Source: Cutibacterium porci (lineage in GTDB: Bacteria > Actinomycetota > Actinomycetes > Propionibacteriales > Propionibacteriaceae). Taken from it: a DNA stretch of 64,000 nucleotides. Positions 22,521 to 34,496 of this stretch are shown here, one piece after another. The notes beneath the pieces were generated by a model. That model saw only the letters and a program-made list of their open reading frames with translations. It was not told the DNA's origin and ran no database searches. Position 1 is the stretch's first letter. The number at the start of each line of letters is the position of its first letter. The DNA lies in the NCBI RefSeq assembly GCF_009696315.1, contig NZ_VUMG01000003.1:434001-498000 (forward strand). The letters are read 5' to 3'. Both the position numbers and the translations under genes were made by a program.

Positions 22521-22594
22521 GCGGGCGTAGCTCAATGGTAGAGCGCCAGCTTCCCAAGCTGGACACGCGGGTTCGATTCCCGTCGCCCGCTCCA
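22521..22594 (+). tRNA. tRNA-Gly(CCC)
   Basis: A full cloverleaf folds: acceptor GCGGGCG / CGCCCGC, D stem GCTC / GAGC, anticodon stem CCAGC / GCTGG with loop TTCCCAA (anticodon CCC), T arm GCGGG-TTCGATT-CCCGT, discriminator T and encoded CCA. Its 3' half is duplicated at 32854, marking it as the integration target of the island that follows. Confidence 0.97.
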
Positions 22595-22620
22595 CTATGA
22601 CCTCGCATTTGATAAGGCCC
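22551..22620 (+). repeat. Direct repeat, left copy (attachment-type site in tRNA-Gly)
   Basis: This 70-bp segment covers the tRNA from the anticodon loop to CCA plus 26 bp beyond. It recurs without mismatch at 32854-32923. Sequence beyond the repeat is still related in both copies (recombinase 3' ends), so the repeat is the conserved core of a larger homology. Confidence 0.9.
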
Positions 22621-22782
22621 GGGTTGCGTTTGGCGAGTATGCCCTTGGGGGTCTAAATTCCGGCGAGCGTTGGCGAGTTCACGTTTACCCTGGTCAGCGC
22701 GTTGGCGAGTTGAGCATCAGCTAGTTACGGGCATGAAAATGCCCGCCCTCATATGAGCCGGGCTCGGCTACGCGGAACAGTT

Positions 22783-23665
22783 CTACAGGTCGATGGTGAG
22801 TGCACGTCCGTCGCGGAAGAAGAACTCAATGGCTTCTTCCCTGACGATGGCGTGGTCGATGAGGGCAGTCCACTGGGTTGGCTGGAACGTGCTGACCGGC
22901 GCGGCTGAGAGTTGGTCGTATGCGGCAAGCAGCGCGTTGTGTTTGACTTGGCGCTCGTTGATCTGCCCCTCCAGGTTCTTCAATCGGTCGGTGACGTGGT
23001 TGTAGTCGGTCTCGATGCGTTTGATCTGCTTGGCGTACTTGTCCTGGTCGGTAGCAACATGCTGGTTGTGTGCCACCATCGCTGTGAACGCGGCCTCTAG
23101 TTCAGCCTGCCGCTCGGCCACGTGCTCCCGCTCAGCTTCAAGGCTCGTTTGTGTCAAAAACGGTTGCGAGGTCTTCACGAAGGCCCGGATCCTCGAGGGT
23201 AGCTGAGTTGTGACAGCGCGGCCAGGAAGGCGGTCTTGATTTGGTGGTCACGAAGCGTTGGCGTAGGGCAGACGTGGTCGCCTGCGTGTTTGTTGTTGAA
23301 GTGCCACGCGGTGTGTTTGTTCGTGGTCGATGACCAGGTTTTCCATCCGTACCAGCCGCCACAGTCGGCGCATTTCAGGCGGGAAGAAAACAGGTGGAGT
23401 TTCGAGCCGCTTCCTTCCCCGTGACGGGTGGCTATTTCGTATTGGACTTGATCCCACACGCCAGGGTCGATGATCGGCTCGTGGTTTCCGGTGACGTAGT
23501 ACTGGGCAACCTCACCATCGTTACGCTTGATGGTCTTGGTCAAGAAATCAGCAGTGTACGTCTTCTGTAAGAGGGCGTCGCCTTTGTATTTCTCGTTAGA
23601 TAGGACTGCCTGAAGCGCCTCACCCTCGGATGCGCCACCTCCAAGGGGTCTGGTGGCCGGGATGG
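22783..23665 (-). pseudogene. Large serine recombinase, C-terminal remnant
   Basis: Readable parts in order: a recombinase domain (ALQAVLSNEKYKGDALLQKT, then GEVAQYYVTGNHEPIIDPGV), half of a zinc ribbon (LKCADCGGWYG), and, after two frame changes near 23145-23215, a coiled-coil segment (EAEREHVAERQAELEAAF) and the family-typical end (EEAIEFFFRDGR). The catalytic N-terminus is missing and the start is fused in frame to the end of the next recombinase, at about 23665. This is a deletion product of two tandem recombinase genes, both non-functional. Confidence 0.85.
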
Positions 23666-24898
23666 CTGTGACGGTGGTGCCATCCTTCAGCGTGATGTCG
23701 AGCCGATCGGGATACGCGTGGATCACGTCGAGGTGCTCTGCGACGGCATCCTCATCGAAACGCTCGAGGCCGAGGATGTCGGCCATGAGGTTTTCGAGCA
23801 CGGTTTCGCGTAGATTGTGGCTCCCGCACGGGTTGCCGTGTCCTTTGCAGGCGTTCCAGCAGCGCCAGAATTTGTAGTCAGGCACGGTGGCGCGTGTGCG
23901 GGTTTTGCGTTGATAGTTACACCCGCAGGCTGGGCAGGTGATCTTGCCAGTGAAGCACCCGGTGTTTTCGACGGGGTCGCTGCCGGGCCGATTTCTCGAC
24001 GGCGGGCGATCTCGGCTTGCGCCTGGTCAAACAGCTCAGGGTCGATGATCGCGGGCAGGGCTCCTTCGACCCAGTATTTAGGTAGTTCGCCGGTACTCGT
24101 TGCCAATGGCGGATGCGGGGCGCAAACGTCTTTTGCAGCATCTGGCAGCCTTTGTAGCGTTCGTTTTCCAGCATGCGCCGCATCACCGACCCGTAGAATC
24201 TGCCTCCGCCACGCGACCGGTGCCCGCATTGAGCCAGGTTGCGGTCTTCTCCGGCGAAATACCGGCTAGGTAGTCGGCGAACAGCAGGCGCACGATCTTG
24301 GCTTCGTCGTCGTTAATAACGAAGCCGTTCCCGGCCCAGTCGTAGCCATAGATCCAAAACGAGTTCGTGCCGCCTTGCGTGTAGCGCTTTCGGATCGCCC
24401 ATTTCACGTTGCGTTGCAGGGGGCGGGATTCTTCTTGGGCAAACGACGCCAGCAGCGTGAGCAACAGTTCACCATCGGCGGTATTGGTGTCAGTGCTTTC
24501 TCGTTCGAACCGTACCGCCACACCCAGGGCTTTTAGTTCGCAGATGGTTTCTAGTAAGTCGACGGTGTTTCGGGCAAGCCGCGAGATTGACTTGCACAGC
24601 ACGCTACCGATCAGGCCTGCGCGTGCTGTGGTTATGAGGTCTTGGAAACCGGGGCGATTGGTCGACGTGCCAGTGATGCCCAGATCGGAGAACACTCCGG
24701 CGTATTCCCAACCGGGTGTGGCTTGGATGAGCCGCGAATAATGGGAGACCTGCGCAGCCAAGGATGCCGGTAGGCGTCCCGAATCATCACTGACCCGGGC
24801 ATAGGCCGCCACCCGCACCACCGTAGGTGGGCCGGTCGCGCAGGGATAACCCGTAGCCCTGGTGGGGCTTTTTGTAATGGGATTTGATTGATTGTCAT
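23666..24898 (-). pseudogene. Large serine recombinase, frameshifted
   Basis: The likely start is ATG 24898 (MTINQIPLQKAPPGLRVIPA), followed by a frame change near 24825 into the catalytic domain: VAAYARVSDD with the nucleophile Ser, then SISRLARNTVDLL and SFAQEESRPLQRNVKWAIRKR. Around 24185 the frame changes again into MRRMLENERYKGCQMLQKTF, and again near 23880 into the C-terminal CKGHGNPCGSHNLRETVLEN. At least three frameshifts make it inactive. Such enzymes normally integrate and excise actinobacterial elements; pairs of them in tandem are common. Confidence 0.88.
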
Positions 24899-25141: not shown

Positions 25142-25525
25142 TTATTTACGGCCCCCACGAGTACCGAAACGAGCAAGCACATAGCAGGCGTGACAGCAAT
25201 ACTTTTGGCTCGTCTTGACTACCGTGAATTCGTCCCCGCAGCCCGCACACATTGTTGTTCGAGAGCCGCCTGCTTTCACGGATTGGCACCAGGCTTCCCA
25301 GCGGCATGCGGGGCGCAATACTTCGCCCGAGATGTGCGTCCTTCGAGCGCTTAGCCGCACCAGGCGCACACGGATTCGCTGGCGTCGGGGCTGGCTGTGA
25401 TGTTGTGTCGTTGGCAATAGGAGCGCACCTGGTCTCGGGTCAGCCCGCAAAACTCGGAGATGGACTTATATCCCCAGCCCGCGTTTCGCAGGTTAGTGAT
25501 TCGTCGGATTGCCAGTGGAGTCATC
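25142..25525 (-). pseudogene. HTH/zinc-ribbon accessory protein, broken
   Basis: Starting at ATG 25525 the frame gives an HTH-like N-terminus (MTPLAIRRITNLRNAGWGYK) and then CAWCG followed directly by a TAA. Beyond it, in the same frame, reads ALEGRTSRAKYCAPHA, and one frame change near 25300 continues as ACRWEAWCQ and CAGCGDEFTVVKTSQKYCC. Joined, these make a two-zinc-knuckle protein often found next to actinobacterial serine recombinases. One stop and one frameshift disable it. Confidence 0.7.
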
Positions 25526-25617
25526 TAATAGCACAGTCCCTTCACTCCACTGCCGACGAGCTCCGTTTTGTTTAGCCCCAAGAAATGCGGCGACATGCGC
25601 CCACGACGCGGCGACAG

Positions 25618-25634
25618 ATACTCTTGAGGTGTAT
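25618..25634 (+). promoter_or_regulatory. Conserved dyad upstream of the GIY-YIG gene
   Basis: ATACTCTTGAGGTGTAT is an imperfect palindrome 31 nt before the GIY-YIG start. The same 17 bases, in a longer conserved block, precede the broken second copy (34199-34215), pointing to an operator or promoter element. Confidence 0.4.
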
Positions 25635-25664
25635 CCGTGTGCGTTGGCGACAAGGAGGTGGCTC

Positions 25665-26576
25665 GTGGCGGCACCAAGGACTGTGCAGTTGTTCTTGATG
25701 GACGGCTCACCTAACGGGCGAATCAAATGCTCGTTAGATAACTGGGTGGGCAAGGTCTACCTGATCCCCCGCACGGAGATCACACGCTCCAAAGACCGCC
25801 CTGAACTGGCGCAGACGGGCATCTACCTGTTGTTCGGCACCGACACCGAAACCGGCGACGCGTTTCTCTACGCCGGGCAGGCCCGCGAACGGAAGAACGG
25901 TAACGGCGTGCTGGCCCGGGTAGCTGAACATCTGAGTGAAGAGAAACTGAACTATTTCACCCACGCGATTTTGATCATCGATTCAGATAACTCCTTCGGC
26001 CCCACCGAAATCTCCTATCTGGAAAACGCCTTCTACCAGCAAGCACTGGCAGCTGACCGAGTCAAGGCCGTCAACAGCAACGACCCGTCCCCGGGCAACG
26101 TAACTGAGGAAAAGAAAGCCGCCCTCGATGAATTCATCTCGACGGCAAAAATCCTCATCGGTTCACTGGGGCACCGGGTTTTCGATGCCGTCGATGACGC
26201 AAAATCCGTCACACAGGCTTCGTCCCGTTCAGCTTCACCGGGTGCGGAACCGTTGCTGTTCCTGAACTCGGCTGGCGCAACTGGTAGCGGACGGCAAACC
26301 ACCGACGGATTCGTCATCCTGAAGGGTGCACAGCTGCGCGCAGACATGACCCACTCAGCACCAGAATCAGCACGCAAGAACCGAGAAAAATTCGCTGACC
26401 GCATCAGCGACAGCGGTGAGCTGATCCGCGACACCCTCTTCACCTCACCGTCTGCTGCCTCAGACTTCCTCACCGGTTCATCCACCTCAGGCAAGGTCTT
26501 GTGGAAAACCAGTGACGGCATCACACTGCGCGACCTCGAACAAGCAGAACTCAAAGCCACTACCACCAACCTATAA
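25665..26576 (+). CDS. GIY-YIG nuclease-like protein with C-terminal DUF4357 domain
   Basis: 303 residues from GTG 25665, with AGGAGG 6 nt upstream; no other start has one. The N-terminal half has the GIY-YIG pattern: TGIYLLFGTDTE (about residue 47) and FLYAGQARERKNG (about 67), then LENAFYQQAL with the conserved Glu. The C-terminal part (TDGFVILKGAQL, SPSAASDFLTGSSTSGKVLW) matches DUF4357. Proteins of this build are often linked to restriction or mobile DNA. It is the only fully intact gene of the left part of the element. The true function is unproven; a DNA-nicking or defence role is inference. Confidence 0.75.
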   Translation: MAAPRTVQLFLMDGSPNGRIKCSLDNWVGKVYLIPRTEITRSKDRPELAQTGIYLLFGTDTETGDAFLYAGQARERKNGNGVLARVAEHLSEEKLNYFTHAILIIDSDNSFGPTEISYLENAFYQQALAADRVKAVNSNDPSPGNVTEEKKAALDEFISTAKILIGSLGHRVFDAVDDAKSVTQASSRSASPGAEPLLFLNSAGATGSGRQTTDGFVILKGAQLRADMTHSAPESARKNREKFADRISDSGELIRDTLFTSPSAASDFLTGSSTSGKVLWKTSDGITLRDLEQAELKATTTNL

Positions 26577-27246: not shown

Positions 27247-28005
27247 TTATCCCTCAAAGCTGGCGATACGAAGACCCCTGACGGCCGCAAGAGAAAAGAT
27301 ACCCGCGACGACGAGCAGGGCTAGAACCACCAGGAAGTCCCACAGACGCAGTTCTCCGTTAAAAATCCCACGTACCCACTGCACTTGATAACTCAATGGG
27401 TTAATTCTAGCCAGAATGCGCACAAACACGGGGGCTCCATCAAGACGGTAAAACACTGGAGCTGAAAAGCTCAACGGAAGCATCATAATATTGACGATAA
27501 AGTCTCTTGTTTGGTAGTTCGACACCAAACCCGTGATCGTGATGCCAATCAAACTCCAAAAAATCGCACAAACAGCACCTGCAAGAACCCCGAGAAAGAG
27601 CGGAACCACAGAGAATCCAGAACCAACAATAAGCATGCAAATGACTACAACGCACGCTTGTATGGCAAACACGATTAAGCGCGGAGCCAAAAGACTCGCA
27701 CCATACGCGGACATAGGAACACCTGCTTGTAGCTTCATCGCAGCAAGGCCCCAGCGCCGCTCGATTACCACCCGGTAGATCATCTGTGACAAGGCAGACA
27801 AGGCCTGCATTACGATGATTCCAGGACCCACGAACCGCAAATAGTCCCCGCCTCCGAGGACACCAGACAGTCCCAACCCGAGCAAACAAAAATAAGCAAG
27901 CGGTGAGACACACAACGAAAGACAGTGCCGCCAACTATTTAAACCAGCGCTGGAAATTTCAAGTCGAAGCAATGAATTAAACGAAGTACCCCAGTTCAGA
28001 GACAC
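27247..28005 (-). CDS. ABC-2 type transporter permease of the lanthipeptide locus
   Basis: 252 residues from GTG 28005 with GAGGAG about 9 nt upstream. Six hydrophobic segments are visible, with the ABC-2 segment SFSAPVFYRLDG and the INPLSYQVQWVRG motif typical of bacterial drug/peptide exporters. It follows the ATPase gene by 41 nt. Together they should form an efflux pump for the lanthipeptide or for self-protection. Base composition is lower in GC than the chromosome around it. Confidence 0.83.
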   Translation of the reverse strand: MSLNWGTSFNSLLRLEISSAGLNSWRHCLSLCVSPLAYFCLLGLGLSGVLGGGDYLRFVGPGIIVMQALSALSQMIYRVVIERRWGLAAMKLQAGVPMSAYGASLLAPRLIVFAIQACVVVICMLIVGSGFSVVPLFLGVLAGAVCAIFWSLIGITITGLVSNYQTRDFIVNIMMLPLSFSAPVFYRLDGAPVFVRILARINPLSYQVQWVRGIFNGELRLWDFLVVLALLVVAGIFSLAAVRGLRIASFEG

Positions 28006-28046
28006 CCTCAGGACTCCTCAAAATCGCTTCCCCGCTACCGTACAAG

Positions 28047-28928
28047 TTAATGTTGAGCAGCCCACTTTACTGCTTGGCGAAGTCCCACCGCCTGACGGGA
28101 ATATTCTACGACATCCACACCCGATGGCAAGACTCCCAACACTGTCTTGAAGTCGGTACCACGTGGCACATCCAGAATAATGCTGCATCCTTGCACCTCC
28201 ACAGAGAACCCCTCGACCTTCCCCAAATCATCTGGCGAGACAGCCCGATCCAAGACAACTCGAATAGTCTCTTTGGTAACGAATCGCTCCACAAAATCCG
28301 GCTTACTGCCAAAAAATTTGACGACACCATCCGCAAGGAAAATGACATCATCAATAAGATCTTCTACAGCCTCGAATTCATGTGAGGAAATCACAACTGT
28401 CGCACCACTCTGCCTGACGTCTCGCACATGATCCGCAAAACGTTCGAGATTCTGTACATCTAATCCCACCGTGGGCTCATCGAGCAAATAGATATCTGGC
28501 TGCATGGCGAAAGTCCGCGCGATCATCAATCTCTGCTGCTGCCCTCCTGACAGAACTTCAGGAGTGGCCTTGAGATTGGCATCACCTAAGCCGACCTGGG
28601 CTATGGCTTGATCTGTTATAAGATTGGCCCGGTCTCCCTTCAACCCAGCAAGACAGGCGCCAAGCCAGACGTTCATCCAACCACTGACAAACCAGTCAAT
28701 CACCAACCGCTGCGAACACCATCCAACGCGTGCATCTGCAGTATCAACGCACCCCTGTGAAGGCTCAGACACACCACCAAGCAAATCAATCAGCGTAGAC
28801 TTTCCTGCCCCATTTTCTCCCAATAAGCCGACAACCCGGCCACTGCAGATTTCGAGATGGGGAATATCTAAAACCAGCTTTTCACCATAACGCTTTTGCA
28901 ACCGCTCGATGCGGATAGCCGGGATCAT
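28047..28928 (-). CDS. ABC transporter ATPase of the lanthipeptide locus
   Basis: 293 residues from ATG 28928, which overlaps the stop of the lyase-kinase gene (ATGA). Walker A is GLLGENGAGKST (about residue 37), the signature is LSGGQQQR and Walker B is IYLLDEPTVGLD, followed by ISSHEFEAV. The C-terminal 70 residues resemble the regulatory tail of ABC-2 type ATPases. It is translationally coupled to the modifying enzyme and precedes the permease, the usual layout of RiPP exporter genes. Confidence 0.88.
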   Translation of the reverse strand: MIPAIRIERLQKRYGEKLVLDIPHLEICSGRVVGLLGENGAGKSTLIDLLGGVSEPSQGCVDTADARVGWCSQRLVIDWFVSGWMNVWLGACLAGLKGDRANLITDQAIAQVGLGDANLKATPEVLSGGQQQRLMIARTFAMQPDIYLLDEPTVGLDVQNLERFADHVRDVRQSGATVVISSHEFEAVEDLIDDVIFLADGVVKFFGSKPDFVERFVTKETIRVVLDRAVSPDDLGKVEGFSVEVQGCSIILDVPRGTDFKTVLGVLPSGVDVVEYSRQAVGLRQAVKWAAQH

Positions 28929-30262
28929 AGACAGAAAACCTCTCGCATTTCCAATCCTCCTTCTCGACAAATCCTCCGACACATTCTGTGAATCGCATCG
29001 CTCGAAGAGTATTTCGGCTTCCACCAGCCTCCGGTTCCGTCCCGCAAGATACTAGCATGCCAGCGAGGGTGCGTCGCCAGCAAACCGGTCCTGATTAAAG
29101 CAAATAAATCCCGCTCTCGAGAAGGACCAGACCAAGCTGGGCTAACATACCCAGGGGTGCCAGGAGGTGTAAAGGCGACGTCAGCACCTGTACGCAAGCT
29201 AGCCACTTCTAAATCACAGAAACTTACATCTCTCGTACCCGCGCCTATGAGGATATTACCGCAAGAAATGTCATTTATGACTATTCCTCGATCATGAGAA
29301 GGATTCACAAGGTCTCTCAGAATTCTCGTCACTAATCCTTCAATCTCAACAAAGAGAACCTCATAGGGTGGCTCAGAAACCGCCTTGAGGAGACTGCCTG
29401 TCTTATACAAGAAGTCCATCACAAGAAAATGAGAGGAATCCACAGTGAACCCATGGGTTACCGTAGGCATCCCCGGTAGGTCACCAAGTAGCCCCAAGAA
29501 CCGTCTTTGCCGCATCAGTCGCGACACGGCATCAACCCCGTGGGCATCCCGCTCAGCGAAGTCCCTCGCTTCCTTAAGTACGACCCGTCGAGGAAGACAT
29601 GAACCAGGGACTTCAGAGAAGTCAAGTGCCTCAAAAACGCCGCCCTTAGCTCACATCGAAAGCGCCCGGAGCACCAAGTATCGTCCGGCGAACAGTCGTG
29701 TCTGGGCGACCGCTCCCTCGGGCTCACCGCTTCCCCTTCTACCCCAGGGATCCTCAACTCCTTCGGGTAGTGTCCGCCCGGGGGAACGCTCATCCAATTC
29801 ATTGGAACCAGCGCGGCCCCTGTGAGATCGCCCAAGCAATGACCCGTACCGGAAATACAAGCAATCCGATTCAGGGACGGACGAATCGCTCAGTGGGCGC
29901 GGCCCAGATTCCCCTCGGAGCGCCTTCTTCAAGACTTCCACAAGACGCAAGAAGTGATCGCGACTCTGAGGGTAAATAGTTATCACTTTCCTCGCCTGTG
30001 TGACACCAAGTAACCCCATGTTTAGGGATGCTAGTGTTTTCATGTCTCGTGCAAATTTGAACGTCACTCCACCGTCAAGTGCTTTTGCCACAAGAAGTAA
30101 CACATGCCCAGCGCTGTCCAAGCCTGCTGAAACGTGTATTTTGAAACCAAAGCTCGGCAAATCGTCAGTATCACCGATTTGCGTCCAAACCCCAGTATGC
30201 GAGAGTGATTGACAGCCCTTCTCTAAGCTAATTACTTCCGCACATGCCTCATCATAATTCAT
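28925..30262 (-). pseudogene. LanKC-like lyase-kinase without cyclase domain, interrupted by one TGA
   Basis: The single frame of 446 codons is open except for a TGA at codon 204 (29651-29653). Residues about 25-120 match the LanKC lyase domain: GFKIHVSAGLDSAGHVLLLV, VTFKFARDMKTLASLN, KVITIYPQSRDHFLRLVEVL and LYFRYGSL. From about 190 a kinase domain follows: RYLVLRALSM, the TGA, AKGGVFEALD, VVLKEARDF, GIVINDISCGNILI (catalytic Asp), CDLEVA and GTPGYVSPAW. The protein ends soon after the kinase; the roughly 400-residue LanC-like cyclase of class III enzymes is absent. In the family, Ser/Thr are phosphorylated and eliminated to dehydro residues. The TGA sits in the nucleotide-binding loop, so the enzyme is probably dead in this strain. 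Confidence 0.82.
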
Positions 30263-30272
30263 AACTCTGCAC

Positions 30273-30515
30273 TCACACCGTAAGACCACTGCCAAAGACT
30301 TCTCTTCCGGCGTTCACGGCAATACAGAGCACACAATGACTGTAAGAAACTACTAGATCACCGAGCCTAGGGACGCCATAATATGAAGCCAGTAGAGCGA
30401 ATTCCGAGGTCCGGAATCTCTCGCCTTTTGGGCACTTAAATCCACGAATGATCATCCGATAGAGCAAATGCCATGCTCGTGCGCTCATGAACTCGTTTGA
30501 ATTACATTCGAGCAC
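30273..30515 (-). CDS. Small hypothetical protein between protease and lyase-kinase
   Basis: 80 residues from GTG 30515, preferred because GAGGA lies 4 nt upstream; an internal ATG at 30488 would give 71 residues. It begins 8 nt after the protease stop and ends 10 nt before the lyase-kinase start, so it sits tightly within the operon. The sequence (MSARAWHLLYRMIIRGFKCP, then FRTSEFALLASYYGVPRLGD) has a helical look and four Cys, without a known motif. It could be an accessory protein, or a shifted part of the lyase-kinase N-terminus, which looks slightly short. Confidence 0.45.
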   Translation of the reverse strand: MLECNSNEFMSARAWHLLYRMIIRGFKCPKGERFRTSEFALLASYYGVPRLGDLVVSYSHCVLCIAVNAGREVFGSGLTV

Positions 30516-30522
30516 GAATTCC

Positions 30523-32004
30523 TCAAATAGCCACCAAAAAGTGCCGTCGACTCGATGCTGGATCTCTACTGCTTCGGATTCCGAAATTTTTATCGAAGAA
30601 CTCCTGCATAGCTTGCTGCACCGATAAAGCATCGTTGTGCTTGACCAAAGAATGATCAAACGACAGCTCTTCTAAAATATCACCAGGCATAATACACAGC
30701 TCAGACAAATAGGTTCGGAGCTCCTTAGTTGGCGGGGTTACCGTGTCTTGTGGACTCCACATCACGCACATATGGCGAGTCTTTCGTTCACTGGGCGACA
30801 CGATTTTCCCACACATAGAGCGCTTCTTGGGGGAATCGAGTCCCCATTCAGTCGGAGGTACCCGCGAAGATGCGATGCTTTTCCACAGATCCTCGACATT
30901 TACAAATGGGGCAACGGCGATAATCCCTTCCAGAGGCGCATCAGCACTAAGCAACGCTAAGTATGCACCGTAGCTATGTCTGACCAAGAGAACTGAGGAA
31001 AACTCTCGCTCGTGAGACAGGCCAATAAGAGCACGCAACTCGCGAAGGTCCTGAACACCCCACGCGCCGACAATCCGCCTTCTGTGTACGGTCCCCAGAC
31101 CGTCGGCTCCGCTTGGTCCCGGCATCCACATCGTTGCCGTCGGCTGGCCCAGCCAACTAAATGCAGCTGTGTATCTATCGAGAACAGGTTGGTCCGGACC
31201 TCCCGGGAGAAATATGACAAGCATATCACCTCGTCCTATCAAAAGGCCGCGCACCGTCCCGGCTGAGGTATGCCAAAAGGTGTAATCACTACTCGATTCG
31301 AGCGTTTCATTCCCGCGTATTTCTGTGTATTGCAAGCGCGGAACGGAGGCAAAGCATGACCACAACCGCAACTGGTTCTGAGCTGACGGAAAATGCAGAT
31401 AGCCAGACATATAGCCAGTTTCCCCCAAATAGACTGTGCATCTATTTTGAAGTGTGATTTGACCGTTGTTTCCGGCATAGATGGACGTTCGAGAGACTTC
31501 AGCTGGAGCCGTTAATCGCCTTAGCAAACGCTGTTCCTGAAAGTCGATAAGCTGCACTTAATTCGGCGCCGCCTGCGCCGCAGCCAACAGGAACCGTTCA
31601 CCTATCCATGACGACGGGATGGCGGCGACACGCCACAAAATCTCACCCATCTCACTAATAACGACACACTCGTTAGCGAAAGGTGGCGCACTACACCGGA
31701 TAGACAGAGCAATTAATCTACCAGCCGGGGACGCAATTGCCCGCTCAGGCGGAAAGGGGGAGGTGAGCAGTGTACGGGCCCCAACGGGGCTTCTCGATAC
31801 CAAGTGGAATCCCGTTTCAGCGCGATGAACAGTCAGAATCCTCTCATCACCCACTACCGCCAAGGGCCTTACCTCTGCGCCCACACGCAATGTGAAGACT
31901 TCAGTTCCGGTCCACTCGCACACGCACAGCGACCCATCTCTAGGTGCTATAAATCGGTCCCCAGAAGCATCAACCGCAAGCGGCCCATCAATTTGCATAC
32001 CCAT
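30523..32004 (-). pseudogene. Prolyl-oligopeptidase-type (S9) protease, interrupted by one TAA
   Basis: A 494-codon frame with one stop, TAA at codon 149 (31558-31560), directly followed by GTG CAG. The first 148 residues are beta-propeller-like (DGPLAVDASGDRFIAP, GRLIALSIRC, GEILWRVAA). After the stop the propeller goes on (VQLIDFQEQRLLRRLTAP), then an alpha/beta-hydrolase domain with nucleophile LVRHSYGAYLAL, Asp in SPQDTVTP and His in SFDHS. The nucleophile elbow departs from GxSxGG (Arg for the first Gly, Ala for the last). POP-type proteases remove leader peptides in some class III lanthipeptide clusters. A restart at GTG 31557 would yield only the C-terminal part. Confidence 0.8.
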
Positions 32005-32013
32005 GTGAATAGC

Positions 32014-32148
32014 TCATCCGTAAGCATCATTCACGGCGGCACGACCAACAGCAACGCGACAGAGATGCGCTGCCCCGCCGCTCTGACAGAGCAGAGTGGA
32101 CTCACCTTCCGGATCGAAACTGATGGCACTTAAGATGTTCAAGATCAT
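32014..32148 (-). CDS. Candidate SapB/AmfS-like lanthipeptide precursor
   Basis: 44 codons from ATG 32148 (TTG 32142, with GGAA 8 nt upstream, is an alternative start). The peptide begins MILNILSAISFDPEG and goes on ESTLLCQSGGAAHLC, ending in a 15-residue tail without Cys. The short leader plus Ser-x-Leu-Leu-Cys ... Ser ... Leu-Cys pattern resembles RamS/AmfS, whose cores have S-LLL-C and a second S...C ring. A Pro in the leader (FDP-EG) offers a cut site for the POP protease encoded 9 nt downstream. No database comparison was possible. Confidence 0.55.
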   Translation of the reverse strand: MILNILSAISFDPEGESTLLCQSGGAAHLCRVAVGRAAVNDAYG

Positions 32149-32218
32149 TTCCAGATTGAGTGCAGGGTGCCTACACCGACGCGGGTATAGGCAGGCACCC
32201 CCGTCTAGCCTGGAATAT

Positions 32219-32446
32219 TTACCCTGCGGTAGGGCAAGTCTGGCTGTGCGCGCCCGAGAGGGCTGCGCTGACGCAATTCCCGTCAATACCGAGCTGCGCG
32301 AGCGCGTCTAAATCCCTAGCGGCAAAGGCAGCACTCTCCTGGGCTCCCATACCAAAACGTGCAACGGTGCCCTCGGGATCGTTGAAGTAGTCCGAGACAA
32401 CGTTGAAGTCAGTGAGCATGGCACTAACGAACCGATCCTGATTAAT
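32219..32446 (-). CDS. Candidate RiPP precursor with long helical leader, ATT start
   Basis: 75 codons if translation begins at ATT 32446, which has a perfect GAGGAGG 7 nt upstream; the first in-frame ATG (32419) has no ribosome site and would give 66 residues. The leader contains DYFNDPEGTVARFGMGA and AARDLDALAQLGIDGN, a pattern like the small LigA/Nif11-type helical domains recruited as RiPP leaders. The last 18 residues, CVSAALSGAHSQTCPTAG, are rich in Ser, Thr and two Cys, as a core peptide should be. The FNDPEG segment is shared in kind with FDPEG of the second precursor. It is the first gene after the promoter at 32550-32579. Confidence 0.55.
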   Translation of the reverse strand: MNQDRFVSAMLTDFNVVSDYFNDPEGTVARFGMGAQESAAFAARDLDALAQLGIDGNCVSAALSGAHSQTCPTAG

Positions 32447-32466
32447 GGATCAACCTCCTCAAATTG

Positions 32467-32484
32467 GTGACCACCGTTGGTCAC
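32467..32484 (-). promoter_or_regulatory. Dyad in the leader of the lanthipeptide transcript
   Basis: GTGACCA-CCGT-TGGTCAC is a perfect 7-bp inverted repeat lying between the -10 box and the ribosome site of the first precursor. It could be a repressor site downstream of the promoter or an RNA hairpin 6 nt from the Shine-Dalgarno sequence. Confidence 0.45.
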
Positions 32485-32549
32485 GCCAAAGAGTCTTCCT
32501 GCGCGGTAACCGCGATGTCAAGGTCCTCGCCAAACTTCAACCAAAAATT

Positions 32550-32579
32550 ATTATACCACACGGAGAGAGGCCAGCCCAA
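32550..32579 (-). promoter_or_regulatory. Promoter of the lanthipeptide locus
   Basis: On the minus strand TTGGGC (32579-32574), an 18-nt spacer and a perfect TATAAT (32555-32550) precede the first precursor by about 100 nt. An AT-rich run follows the -10 box. Confidence 0.55.
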
Positions 32580-32853
32580 CCTGAGACGCCTAGACTCTGC
32601 AAGTGAGAGCTTTCCTTACTGACTCAAGGCTGACGCCGCCTAGCCCGACGAACCGCGCGGGGCTCAGCGACAGGGCATCAGACCCGCCGTCCGACACCCA
32701 TTCAACACTCCCCTGCCAACGTCACCACGCGAGACCATCGCTGTGCCGTCCAATTAATCGAACACTCGCCCGACGTGCGTGCCCATTCCACCGGCCGACG
32801 CCGGTCACCAGCGGTCACATCACAGCGCCATCAGGGGACCACGCACGCCCCGA
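32580..32853. other. Spacer between lanthipeptide promoter and right repeat
   Basis: No gene is supported on either strand; the stretch is rich in CCGAC-like runs and ends at the 70-bp repeat. Confidence 0.5.
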
Positions 32854-32923
32854 TTCCCAAGCTGGACACGCGGGTTCGATTCCCGTCGCCCGCTCCACTA
32901 TGACCTCGCATTTGATAAGGCCC
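32854..32923 (+). repeat. Direct repeat, right copy (tRNA-Gly 3' fragment)
   Basis: Identical to 22551-22620. It contains the tRNA from the anticodon loop to CCA without the 5' half, so it is not a working tRNA. It marks the junction of element 1 with a second, more decayed element. Confidence 0.9.
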
Positions 32924-34080
32924 AGGTTGCGTCTGGCAAATATGCCCTAGGGACCTGGATTCCGCCCAACGTTGGCGTGCTGACGTTTCGCGAAGTCAGA
33001 CACCTATTCTGCGCGAAAGCCGGCCCACATATGAAGCGGGCCAGGCGACGTGGAACCAGGTCGGCGTCGATTGCGCATCCGTCGCGGAAATAGAACTCGA
33101 TGCTGCCCACGTCGACAACGGCATGGTTGATCAGGGCCGTCTAGCGGGTTGCCCGGAACGTGCTGACCGGCGCACCTAAGAGTTAGTCGTAGGCGGCAGT
33201 CTCCGCCGCGAGGTCCTCGGGCAGAAAAGGTAGAGCTTCGAGCCGCTGCCTACCCCGTGGCCAGTTCGTATTGAACTTGATCCCACACCTCAGGGTCGTT
33301 GAAAGGCTCGTAGCAGCCAGTGACGTAGTACTGGGCGACTTTTCGTTGGTGAAGTTTGATGCTCTTGGTCAAGAAATCAACAGTGCACGCTCCTTGCAGC
33401 GCAGCATTGCCTGTGTATTTCTCGTTAGACAGGATCGAACGGATCGTAGCGACACGCCATGTGGTTGTCCCGCGCGCCGTCAAATACCCTTCGGCCTCGA
33501 AACATCTTTGATTTTTCGGACGGATTTCCCGGCCAGGAACAAGCCATAGATTTCGCGCACTACAGGGGCTCGCTCTTTGCCAATGACAAGGTTGCCGTCC
33601 AAGCCTTTCTTGTAACCAAGCGGGGACTTATACGGCACCATGACCCCCCCCACAAGCTAAGAGTTTATGGTGACCCCACGTCACGTTCTCGGAGATGGAT
33701 CGGGATTCTTCCTGACCAACGAGCTCATGAGTGTGATGAATGGTTGGCCTTTGGAATCCAGCGTCCAAACGTTTTCCATCTCGAAGTACACCTCCACTCC
33801 CCGATCTATCGGCAACCGCACGTGGGCAAGCGTGTCAACAGCGTTACGGGCGAACCGGGACACCGATTTAGTGGCGATGAGATCGATCTCGCCTGCCAGC
33901 ACATCGGTAATCATTTGTGTGAAGCCTTCACGTTATTTCATTAATACTCCGGTGATGCCTTCGCCGGTGTATATACCGACGAGCTGCCAGCCTGCGTGAT
34001 CGCTGATGTAGCTATGTAGCAGCCGACCTGGGCATGGATCGGCGCTCGTCCAATACTGTGGACACCCCAGCGTATACTGC
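32924..34080 (-). pseudogene. Second serine recombinase, heavily decayed
   Basis: Fragments in order along the minus strand: SDHAGWQLVGIYTGEGITG with a following in-frame stop, MITDVLAGEIDLIATKSVSR and FARNAVDTLAHV of the catalytic domain, IRSILSNEKYTGNAALQGA and KVAQYYVTGCYEPFNDPEVW of the recombinase domain, and SIEFYFRDGCA at the C-terminus. Many stops and gaps separate them. The last two parts match the first element's recombinase remnant closely, so both elements come from one family. Confidence 0.8.
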
Positions 34081-34198
34081 TACACGTTCGCCGACCTGCA
34101 GCAGTTCACCATCAGATGCCCCCACCGTCGAGGAGCCCCGTTTTTGTTTAACCCCAACAAAGCAAGACAGCAATATGCGCCCCTCAGCACGGCGACAG

Positions 34199-34215
34199 AT
34201 ACTCTTGAGGTGTAT
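34199..34215 (+). promoter_or_regulatory. Second copy of the GIY-YIG upstream dyad
   Basis: The same ATACTCTTGAGGTGTAT as at 25618, within a conserved upstream block, although the gene it would serve is broken. Confidence 0.35.
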
Positions 34216-34251
34216 TCACGCCCATTTCAACATAACGATAGAGGTGGCTCG

Positions 34252-34496
34252 TGACGGCACCAAGGACTGTGCAATTATTCTTGATGGACGACTCACCTAA
34301 CAGGCGAATCAAATGCTCGTTGAATAACTGAGTGGGCAAGGTCTACCTCATCCCCCGCACGGAGATCACCCACTCCAAGGACCGCCCCGAGCCCACACAG
34401 ACCGGCATCTACCTACTGTTCGGCACCGACACCGAAACCGGCGACGGACTTCTCTACGCCGGGCAAACTCACGAACGAAAGAACGGTAACGAGAAA
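34252..34496 (+). pseudogene. GIY-YIG protein, truncated second copy
   Basis: Starting at GTG 34252 the frame reads TAPRTVQLFLMDDSPNRRIK, nearly the same as the copy at 25665, until a Trp codon has become TGA (34329-34331; SLNN-stop-VGKVYLIP). It stays recognisable through TGIYLLFGTDTETGD and LLYAGQTHERKNGN and then stops matching at about 34496; the rest of the GIY-YIG domain and DUF4357 are lost. Confidence 0.85.

Follow-up and report, generated by a model that had tools for sequence, protein, structure and literature searches.

The lyase–kinase gene and its neighbours

The subject of this study is a class III-like lanthipeptide locus of Cutibacterium porci whose modifying enzyme combines a lyase and a kinase and has no cyclase domain. 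It lies at positions 27247-32579 of the stretch of DNA analysed here (64,000 nucleotides, hereafter the window), which corresponds to positions 434001-498000 of a contig (NZ_VUMG01000003.1; G000:C13) in a 2.6-Mb genome of 19 contigs. On the minus strand, a putative precursor gene is followed by a peptidase frame resembling family S9, an open reading frame (ORF) of 80 codons, the lyase–kinase gene, an ATP-binding cassette (ABC) ATPase gene and an ABC-2 type permease gene (Table 1). The GC content is 0.52-0.54 at 26-32 kb compared with about 0.57-0.63 across most of the window.

In a preliminary description made from the sequence alone, the enzyme had been recognized by three lyase-type motifs (GFKIHVSAG, KVITIYPQSRD and LYFRYGS), and these are indeed located in one minus-strand frame (29651-30295). 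The kinase domain follows in the same frame, which terminates after the kinase fold at 28925 and overlaps the start of the ABC ATPase gene (28928-28047) by ATGA. From ATG 30262 to the final stop the frame comprises 445 codons plus the stop, as had been estimated. The frame is the same throughout, but it is not open, since codon 204, within the Gly-rich loop of the kinase, is TGA. The first in-frame start behind this stop is GTG 29527, past the catalytic Lys. The stretch is clearly coding: this frame has one internal stop, and the other five have 10-33 each.

Lyase and kinase are genuine and related to the class III synthetase LanKC, in agreement with the class III-like character proposed earlier. 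The lyase piece matched RamC_N (PF25816), the RamC-type N-terminal phospho-Ser/Thr lyase family, with an expect value (E) of 1.1e-28, and the NCBIfam profile for LanKC, NF038151, matched both the lyase piece (E 1.8e-28) and the kinase piece (E 5.8e-24). When the stop was read through, NF038151 was matched at E 5e-58 over residues 24-410 and profile positions 32-425 of 833, with a score of 197 bits that stays below the family cut-off of 575. The LanL profile NF038150 scored nearly as well as NF038151 on the two pieces, and PF00069 reached only 17.7 bits on the kinase piece, below its cut-off of 31.7. The nearest PDB sequences were CuvL (8car, E 9e-22) and ThurKC (8sao, 8sap and 8sam, E 3e-20). 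An AlphaFold2 model built on a 47-row alignment had a mean predicted local distance difference test score (pLDDT) of 81 and a predicted template modelling score (pTM) of 0.81, and was weak over the last 45 residues (block means 40-68). It matched LanKC and kinase structures, and its best 16 Foldseek matches were all LanKC structures. Invariant in the alignment are, among others, K, H, K and R of the lyase as well as D, N and D of the kinase, the latter of which we take to be catalytic residues. The invariant lyase residues are taken as catalytic from an earlier study (PMC9486802), mapped by eye.

Like the LanKC enzymes of known structure, CuvL (8car/8cav) and ThurKC (8sam/8sao/8sap), the gene encodes a RamC_N-type lyase and then a kinase in one frame; unlike them, it has no C-terminal LanC-like cyclase domain, its frame is interrupted and its NF038151 score is below the cut-off. 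Because these three features were tested and not found, we do not call it a member of LanKC; it is a degenerate LanKC-related two-domain lyase–kinase. The zinc-binding LanC cyclase of class IV LanL is missing from the window too, and the direct neighbours of the gene are the ABC ATPase gene and the 80-codon ORF instead of a separate LanC. A class IV lanthipeptide cluster is listed for Propionibacterium acnes P.acn17 (TIA2EST22_11370) in PMC4289311. Class Va systems, as reported (PMC12291118, PMC9486802), likewise combine a kinase, LanK, and a lyase, LanY, without a LanC-type cyclase. The kinase (PF01636) and lyase (PF17914) of class V are, however, separate proteins of other families, whereas the window has one frame with RamC_N; neither PF01636 nor PF17914 was reported for the lyase and kinase pieces in the Pfam searches, which leaves the gene outside class V.

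That a cyclase domain is missing had been noticed before and was borne out: using our own 36-row profile of LanKC cyclases and LanC-like neighbours, no cyclase or remnant was detected in the six frames of the window (best E 0.49). In leave-one-out controls the profile recovered 36 of 36 cyclases, a friendly figure, as these are partly close relatives of each other. In a harder control, the cyclase of a second LanKC from the same genome (G000:C1) was found at 3e-45 when left out. Among nine Cutibacterium genomes searched with a 31-row profile, this cyclase was the only match at E <=0.1. PF05147 was discarded as proof of cyclase absence, being too insensitive; it reported nothing in the same genome, and the G000:C1 cyclase scored 22.1 bits, below the cut-off.

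The second LanKC gene is open, has 832 codons including the cyclase domain and is located at G000:C1:173-176 kb (L094 9437-11935). Its operon includes a beta-ketoacyl synthase gene and, judged by eye, genes for a phosphopantetheinyl transferase, a major facilitator superfamily transporter and a two-component system. It looks like a lipopeptide–lanthipeptide hybrid cluster, presumably akin to the lipolanthines. The other eight Cutibacterium genomes contained no RamC_N match.

The neighbourhood also carries defects, which the preliminary description had missed. The peptidase frame is interrupted by an in-frame TAA at 31560-31558 and contains a TGA at 32016-32014, which is internal if translation starts at ATG 32148 and precedes the start if ATG 32004 is used; the two internal stops compare with 12-36 in the other five frames. 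In front of the precursor gene, the Shine–Dalgarno-like sequence GAGGAGG is followed after about 7 bases by ATT, and the first ATG (32419) lies nine codons further on. Together, the stops in the peptidase and lyase–kinase genes and the precursor start give a picture of recent loss. Recoding of TGA was rejected, as the TGAs are accompanied by the TAA in the peptidase frame and by other defects. Both in-frame TGAs (29653-29647 and 32016-32010, minus strand) read TGAGCTA; counting both strands, the window contains this 7-mer 10 times, and the coincidence is probably due to chance.

Congener locus and wider relatives

A remnant of the same locus was found in Cutibacterium sp. isolate S24M_St_45 (G003; metagenome-assembled genome, NZ_JAUNEJ010000003.1). 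As in the window, a kinase tail, the ATGA overlap, the ATPase and the permease follow in this order; unlike in the window, only about 62 kinase codons are left, these have a stop of their own, and they lie behind ileS (named by eye). The last 31 kinase codons of the two loci can be aligned gap-free up to a shared final stop and ATGA. The 17 differences within these codons are distributed 4/1/12 over codon positions 1, 2 and 3 (p 0.002). An in-frame TGA of its own interrupts the congener tail 13 codons ahead of the final stop, the middle of this tail is shorter by 13 codons, and no match to the precursor, peptidase, lyase or cyclase was obtained in the congener. Its ABC ATPase and permease genes are both open, and the ratio of non-synonymous to synonymous substitution rates (dN/dS) between window and congener is 0.136 for the ATPase and 0.082 for the permease, at a dS of about 1.

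Because the congener shares the kinase end, the ATGA and the ABC junction, the junction without a cyclase is older than the separation of the two loci. The kinase tail was under protein-level constraint after this junction had arisen, but by now neither copy is intact. Purifying selection acts on the ABC pair. In both loci, biosynthesis appears to be in the process of being lost while the transporter is kept. Relatives had been expected to end after the kinase as well: the one close relative has the same end and the ATGA, but is itself broken.

Wider relatives were sought in a family sample of 198 genomes and a class sample of 394 genomes. In 32 of the 198 family genomes the read-through was matched at E <=0.001, many of the weaker matches covering the kinase only. 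The class sample, searched with no more than four candidates scored for each genome (E <=1e-8) so that rarer two-domain cases may be missed, gave 108 listed matches spanning both domains, window and congener left out. Frames were open and at least 840 codons long in 104 of these; the remaining four had 513-529 codons. Three of the four (G405, G367 and G596) are open two-domain lyase–kinases directly adjoining a separate LanC-like gene, whose identity was re-checked for two of the three. The enzymes have about 500 codons and end after the kinase, the alignment being poor over the last residues. They resemble the window gene in this end and differ from it in their open frames and in the LanC-like gene next to them. 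In a tree of 57 rows the three form one clade. The window row (end branch 2.2) belongs to a starred set of 14 rows that includes them; long branches meet there and its placement is uncertain. The three actinobacterial loci represent a natural split of LanKC (L087 6386-9042, L088 7626-10380 and L089 7247-9921).

Three further candidates for a two-domain enzyme were rejected. G289, the fourth of the short frames, seems to be a LanKC of full length that was interrupted by a change of frame near a contig end; G512 (336 codons, match 47-297), outside the 108, was judged to be frame-broken; and the gene of a Lactobacillus plasmid has 863 codons. Of 56 plasmid records with a match, one was examined. 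In the family and class genome and contig searches made, no homologue of the locus carrying a cyclase was found; such a homologue is what had been named as fatal to the two-domain interpretation. The lyase piece had no match among viral contigs and the read-through none among phages; in genome contigs the read-through gave 28 pattern stretches, none of them a relative. The literature, covered in part, yielded no mention of a cyclase-less or split LanKC.

Probable origin and decay of the locus

We consider it likely that the window holds a recently degenerated class III-type lanthipeptide locus on an immobile tRNA-Gly element, that its cyclase-less end is ancestral and that the ABC pair alone has been retained. 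The ancestor would have encoded a two-domain lyase–kinase whose stop codon overlapped the start of the ABC transporter gene. Most likely, this enzyme phosphorylated Ser/Thr residues of the precursor and then eliminated the phosphate to give dehydro-residues, a chemistry that we infer. The cyclase-less end was present before the window and congener loci separated; since then, both have suffered damage to or loss of their biosynthetic genes, and selection has preserved the ABC pair alone, whose role is most likely self-protection or export. Translational coupling at the ATGA and what the transporter moves are matters that we likewise infer.

Several points weigh against this explanation. Stops are few, the lyase–kinase gene has no frameshift and its catalytic positions are kept, so the loss should be recent and open copies may exist in other strains. 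In the peptidase frame only one stop is certainly internal, and ATG 32419 could serve as the start of the precursor. The searched genomes comprise one per species, and the dN/dS values come from a single genome pair at high dS.

The preliminary description favoured a stable enzyme of two domains whose products would be dehydrated or spontaneously cyclised peptides. That such an enzyme still works, here or in sister strains, seems quite improbable to us. The conserved domain end, the kept catalytic positions and the open two-domain relatives argue for it, and, according to PMC12291118, the kinase–lyase pair of class Va suffices for a lanthionine (Lan) ring formed by a substrate-controlled path, which the kinase–lyase complex speeds up. 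Against these stand the in-frame TGA here, the other one in the congener tail and the damaged appearance of the neighbouring genes; moreover, all three open two-domain relatives adjoin a LanC-like gene. On the question of whether two domains can act as a dehydratase, the published fragments disagree: according to PMC10604976, the lyase–kinase of ThurKC is inactive on its peptide when alone and acquires activity once the cyclase is supplied on a second polypeptide; for other synthetases, isolated domains are reported to be active. This cooperation in trans, the separate LanC beside the enzymes of G405, G367 and G596, and the cyclase domain of the LanKC at G000:C1:173-176 kb would also suit an arrangement in which the cyclase acted in trans, encoded by a LanC gene now lost or by the full-length G000:C1 gene. 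We hold this to be unlikely, as neither a LanC-like gene nor a remnant of one was found in the window, no cyclase was matched in the congener and the G000:C1 protein belongs to another operon.

It is possible, if doubtful, that a deletion in the common ancestor removed the cyclase from a full-length LanKC, that the ATGA formed at the deletion and that the gene was declining from the outset. The full-length form is the common one (104 of 108), and both known copies of the short form of this locus are broken; but the frame ends at the end of the kinase fold and not within a domain (with the alignment and model weak for the final 45 residues), and the tail remained constrained at the protein level once the cyclase had gone. 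Between a two-domain variant and a cyclase deletion, posed as alternatives in the preliminary description, the sequences would fit an original two-domain design as well as an old deletion, and the cyclase-less end is dated only to before the split of the loci. Errors of sequencing or assembly in an otherwise open locus would account for frames that are otherwise clean with few stops. This is very hard to reconcile with several substitution-type defects in one operon, with the independently assembled congener showing decay in this gene too and with the recombinase being interrupted as well, and we give it hardly any weight.

Cutibacterium might once have had, and some strains might still have, a cyclase-free system derived from class III and independent of LanC: acting on a precursor with a LigA-like leader, the two-domain enzyme by itself would give a dehydrated or self-cyclising peptide, to be exported by the coupled ABC pair. 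We advance this as a rather unlikely, speculative extension. Should the cyclase-free state once have been functional, this would be a natural case of a class III dehydratase operating with two domains only. Whether dehydration needs the cyclase can be asked directly with the three open two-domain enzymes that adjoin a separate LanC-like gene, and the locus exemplifies the loss of a biosynthetic operon with retention of the transporter.

Remaining genes and the tRNA-Gly element

Table 1. Features of the lanthipeptide locus and of the surrounding element, in window positions.
Feature	Position	Strand	Remarks
Possible -10 box of the operon, TATAAT	32550..32555	-	by eye; absent from consensus-scan list
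Putative precursor	32219..32446	-	leader weakly LigA-like (PF07746); C-terminal GNCVSAALSGAHSQTCPTAG
S9 (prolyl oligopeptidase)-like peptidase frame	30523..32148	-	C-terminal piece PF00326, E 0.003, below cut-off
80-codon ORF between peptidase and lyase–kinase	30273..30515	-	nature unassigned by profiles
Lyase part of lyase–kinase, from ATG 30262	29654..30262	-	RamC_N match; K, H, K, R, Y columns kept
In-frame TGA splitting lyase–kinase in kinase Gly-loop	29651..29653	-	codon 204 of 446
Kinase part of lyase–kinase, behind in-frame TGA	28925..29650	-	NF038151 match; catalytic-loop D and N and DFG-type D kept
ABC ATPase, open	28047..28928	-	PF00005, E 2e-23; ATG overlaps lyase–kinase stop (ATGA)
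ABC-2 type permease, open	27247..28005	-	PF01061, E 2e-12; 85% identical copy in congener
tRNA-Gly(ccc)	22521-22594	+	ARAGORN
Left direct repeat, overlaps tRNA-Gly 3' end	22546..22649	+	104 bp, 93% identical to 32849-32952
Right direct repeat, copy of tRNA-Gly 3' end	32849..32952	+	repeat comparison
Serine recombinase in pieces	22783..24821	-	Resolvase domain 24183-24821; Recombinase and zinc-ribbon domains 23175-23885
355-codon ORF, DUF4357 domain	25509..26576	+	PF14267, E 7e-11

The leader of the putative precursor matched PF07746, the LigA subunit family, at E 0.0018 with 18.8 bits, below the cut-off of 25.3. Among 197 family genomes the other precursor matches were no better than E 0.0086 and were put down to chance; the sole paper found on LigA-type leaders of ribosomally synthesized and post-translationally modified peptides concerned plant peptides. 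The peptidase assignment is weak, with matches in family genomes, in frames of 612-755 codons, at E 2e-4 and weaker and with acylaminoacyl peptidases in the PDB at E 0.24 and weaker. For the 80-codon ORF, Pfam and NCBIfam gave no match up to E 10.

The locus is contained in a 10.3-kb stretch bounded by the tRNA-Gly repeats. A 49-bp part of the repeat recurs in 12 Propionibacterium freudenreichii phage records and lies in Anatole beside the integrase gene; a near-DNA search of plasmids gave a 74-base tRNA as the sole match. The DUF4357 ORF is presumably GIY-YIG-like, judged by eye. With its recombinase in pieces, the island is probably no longer self-mobile. At 33114-34491, in tandem after the right repeat, parts of the recombinase and DUF4357 genes are found once more, in a more advanced state of decay, an arrangement that would fit insertion of two related elements at one tRNA-Gly.

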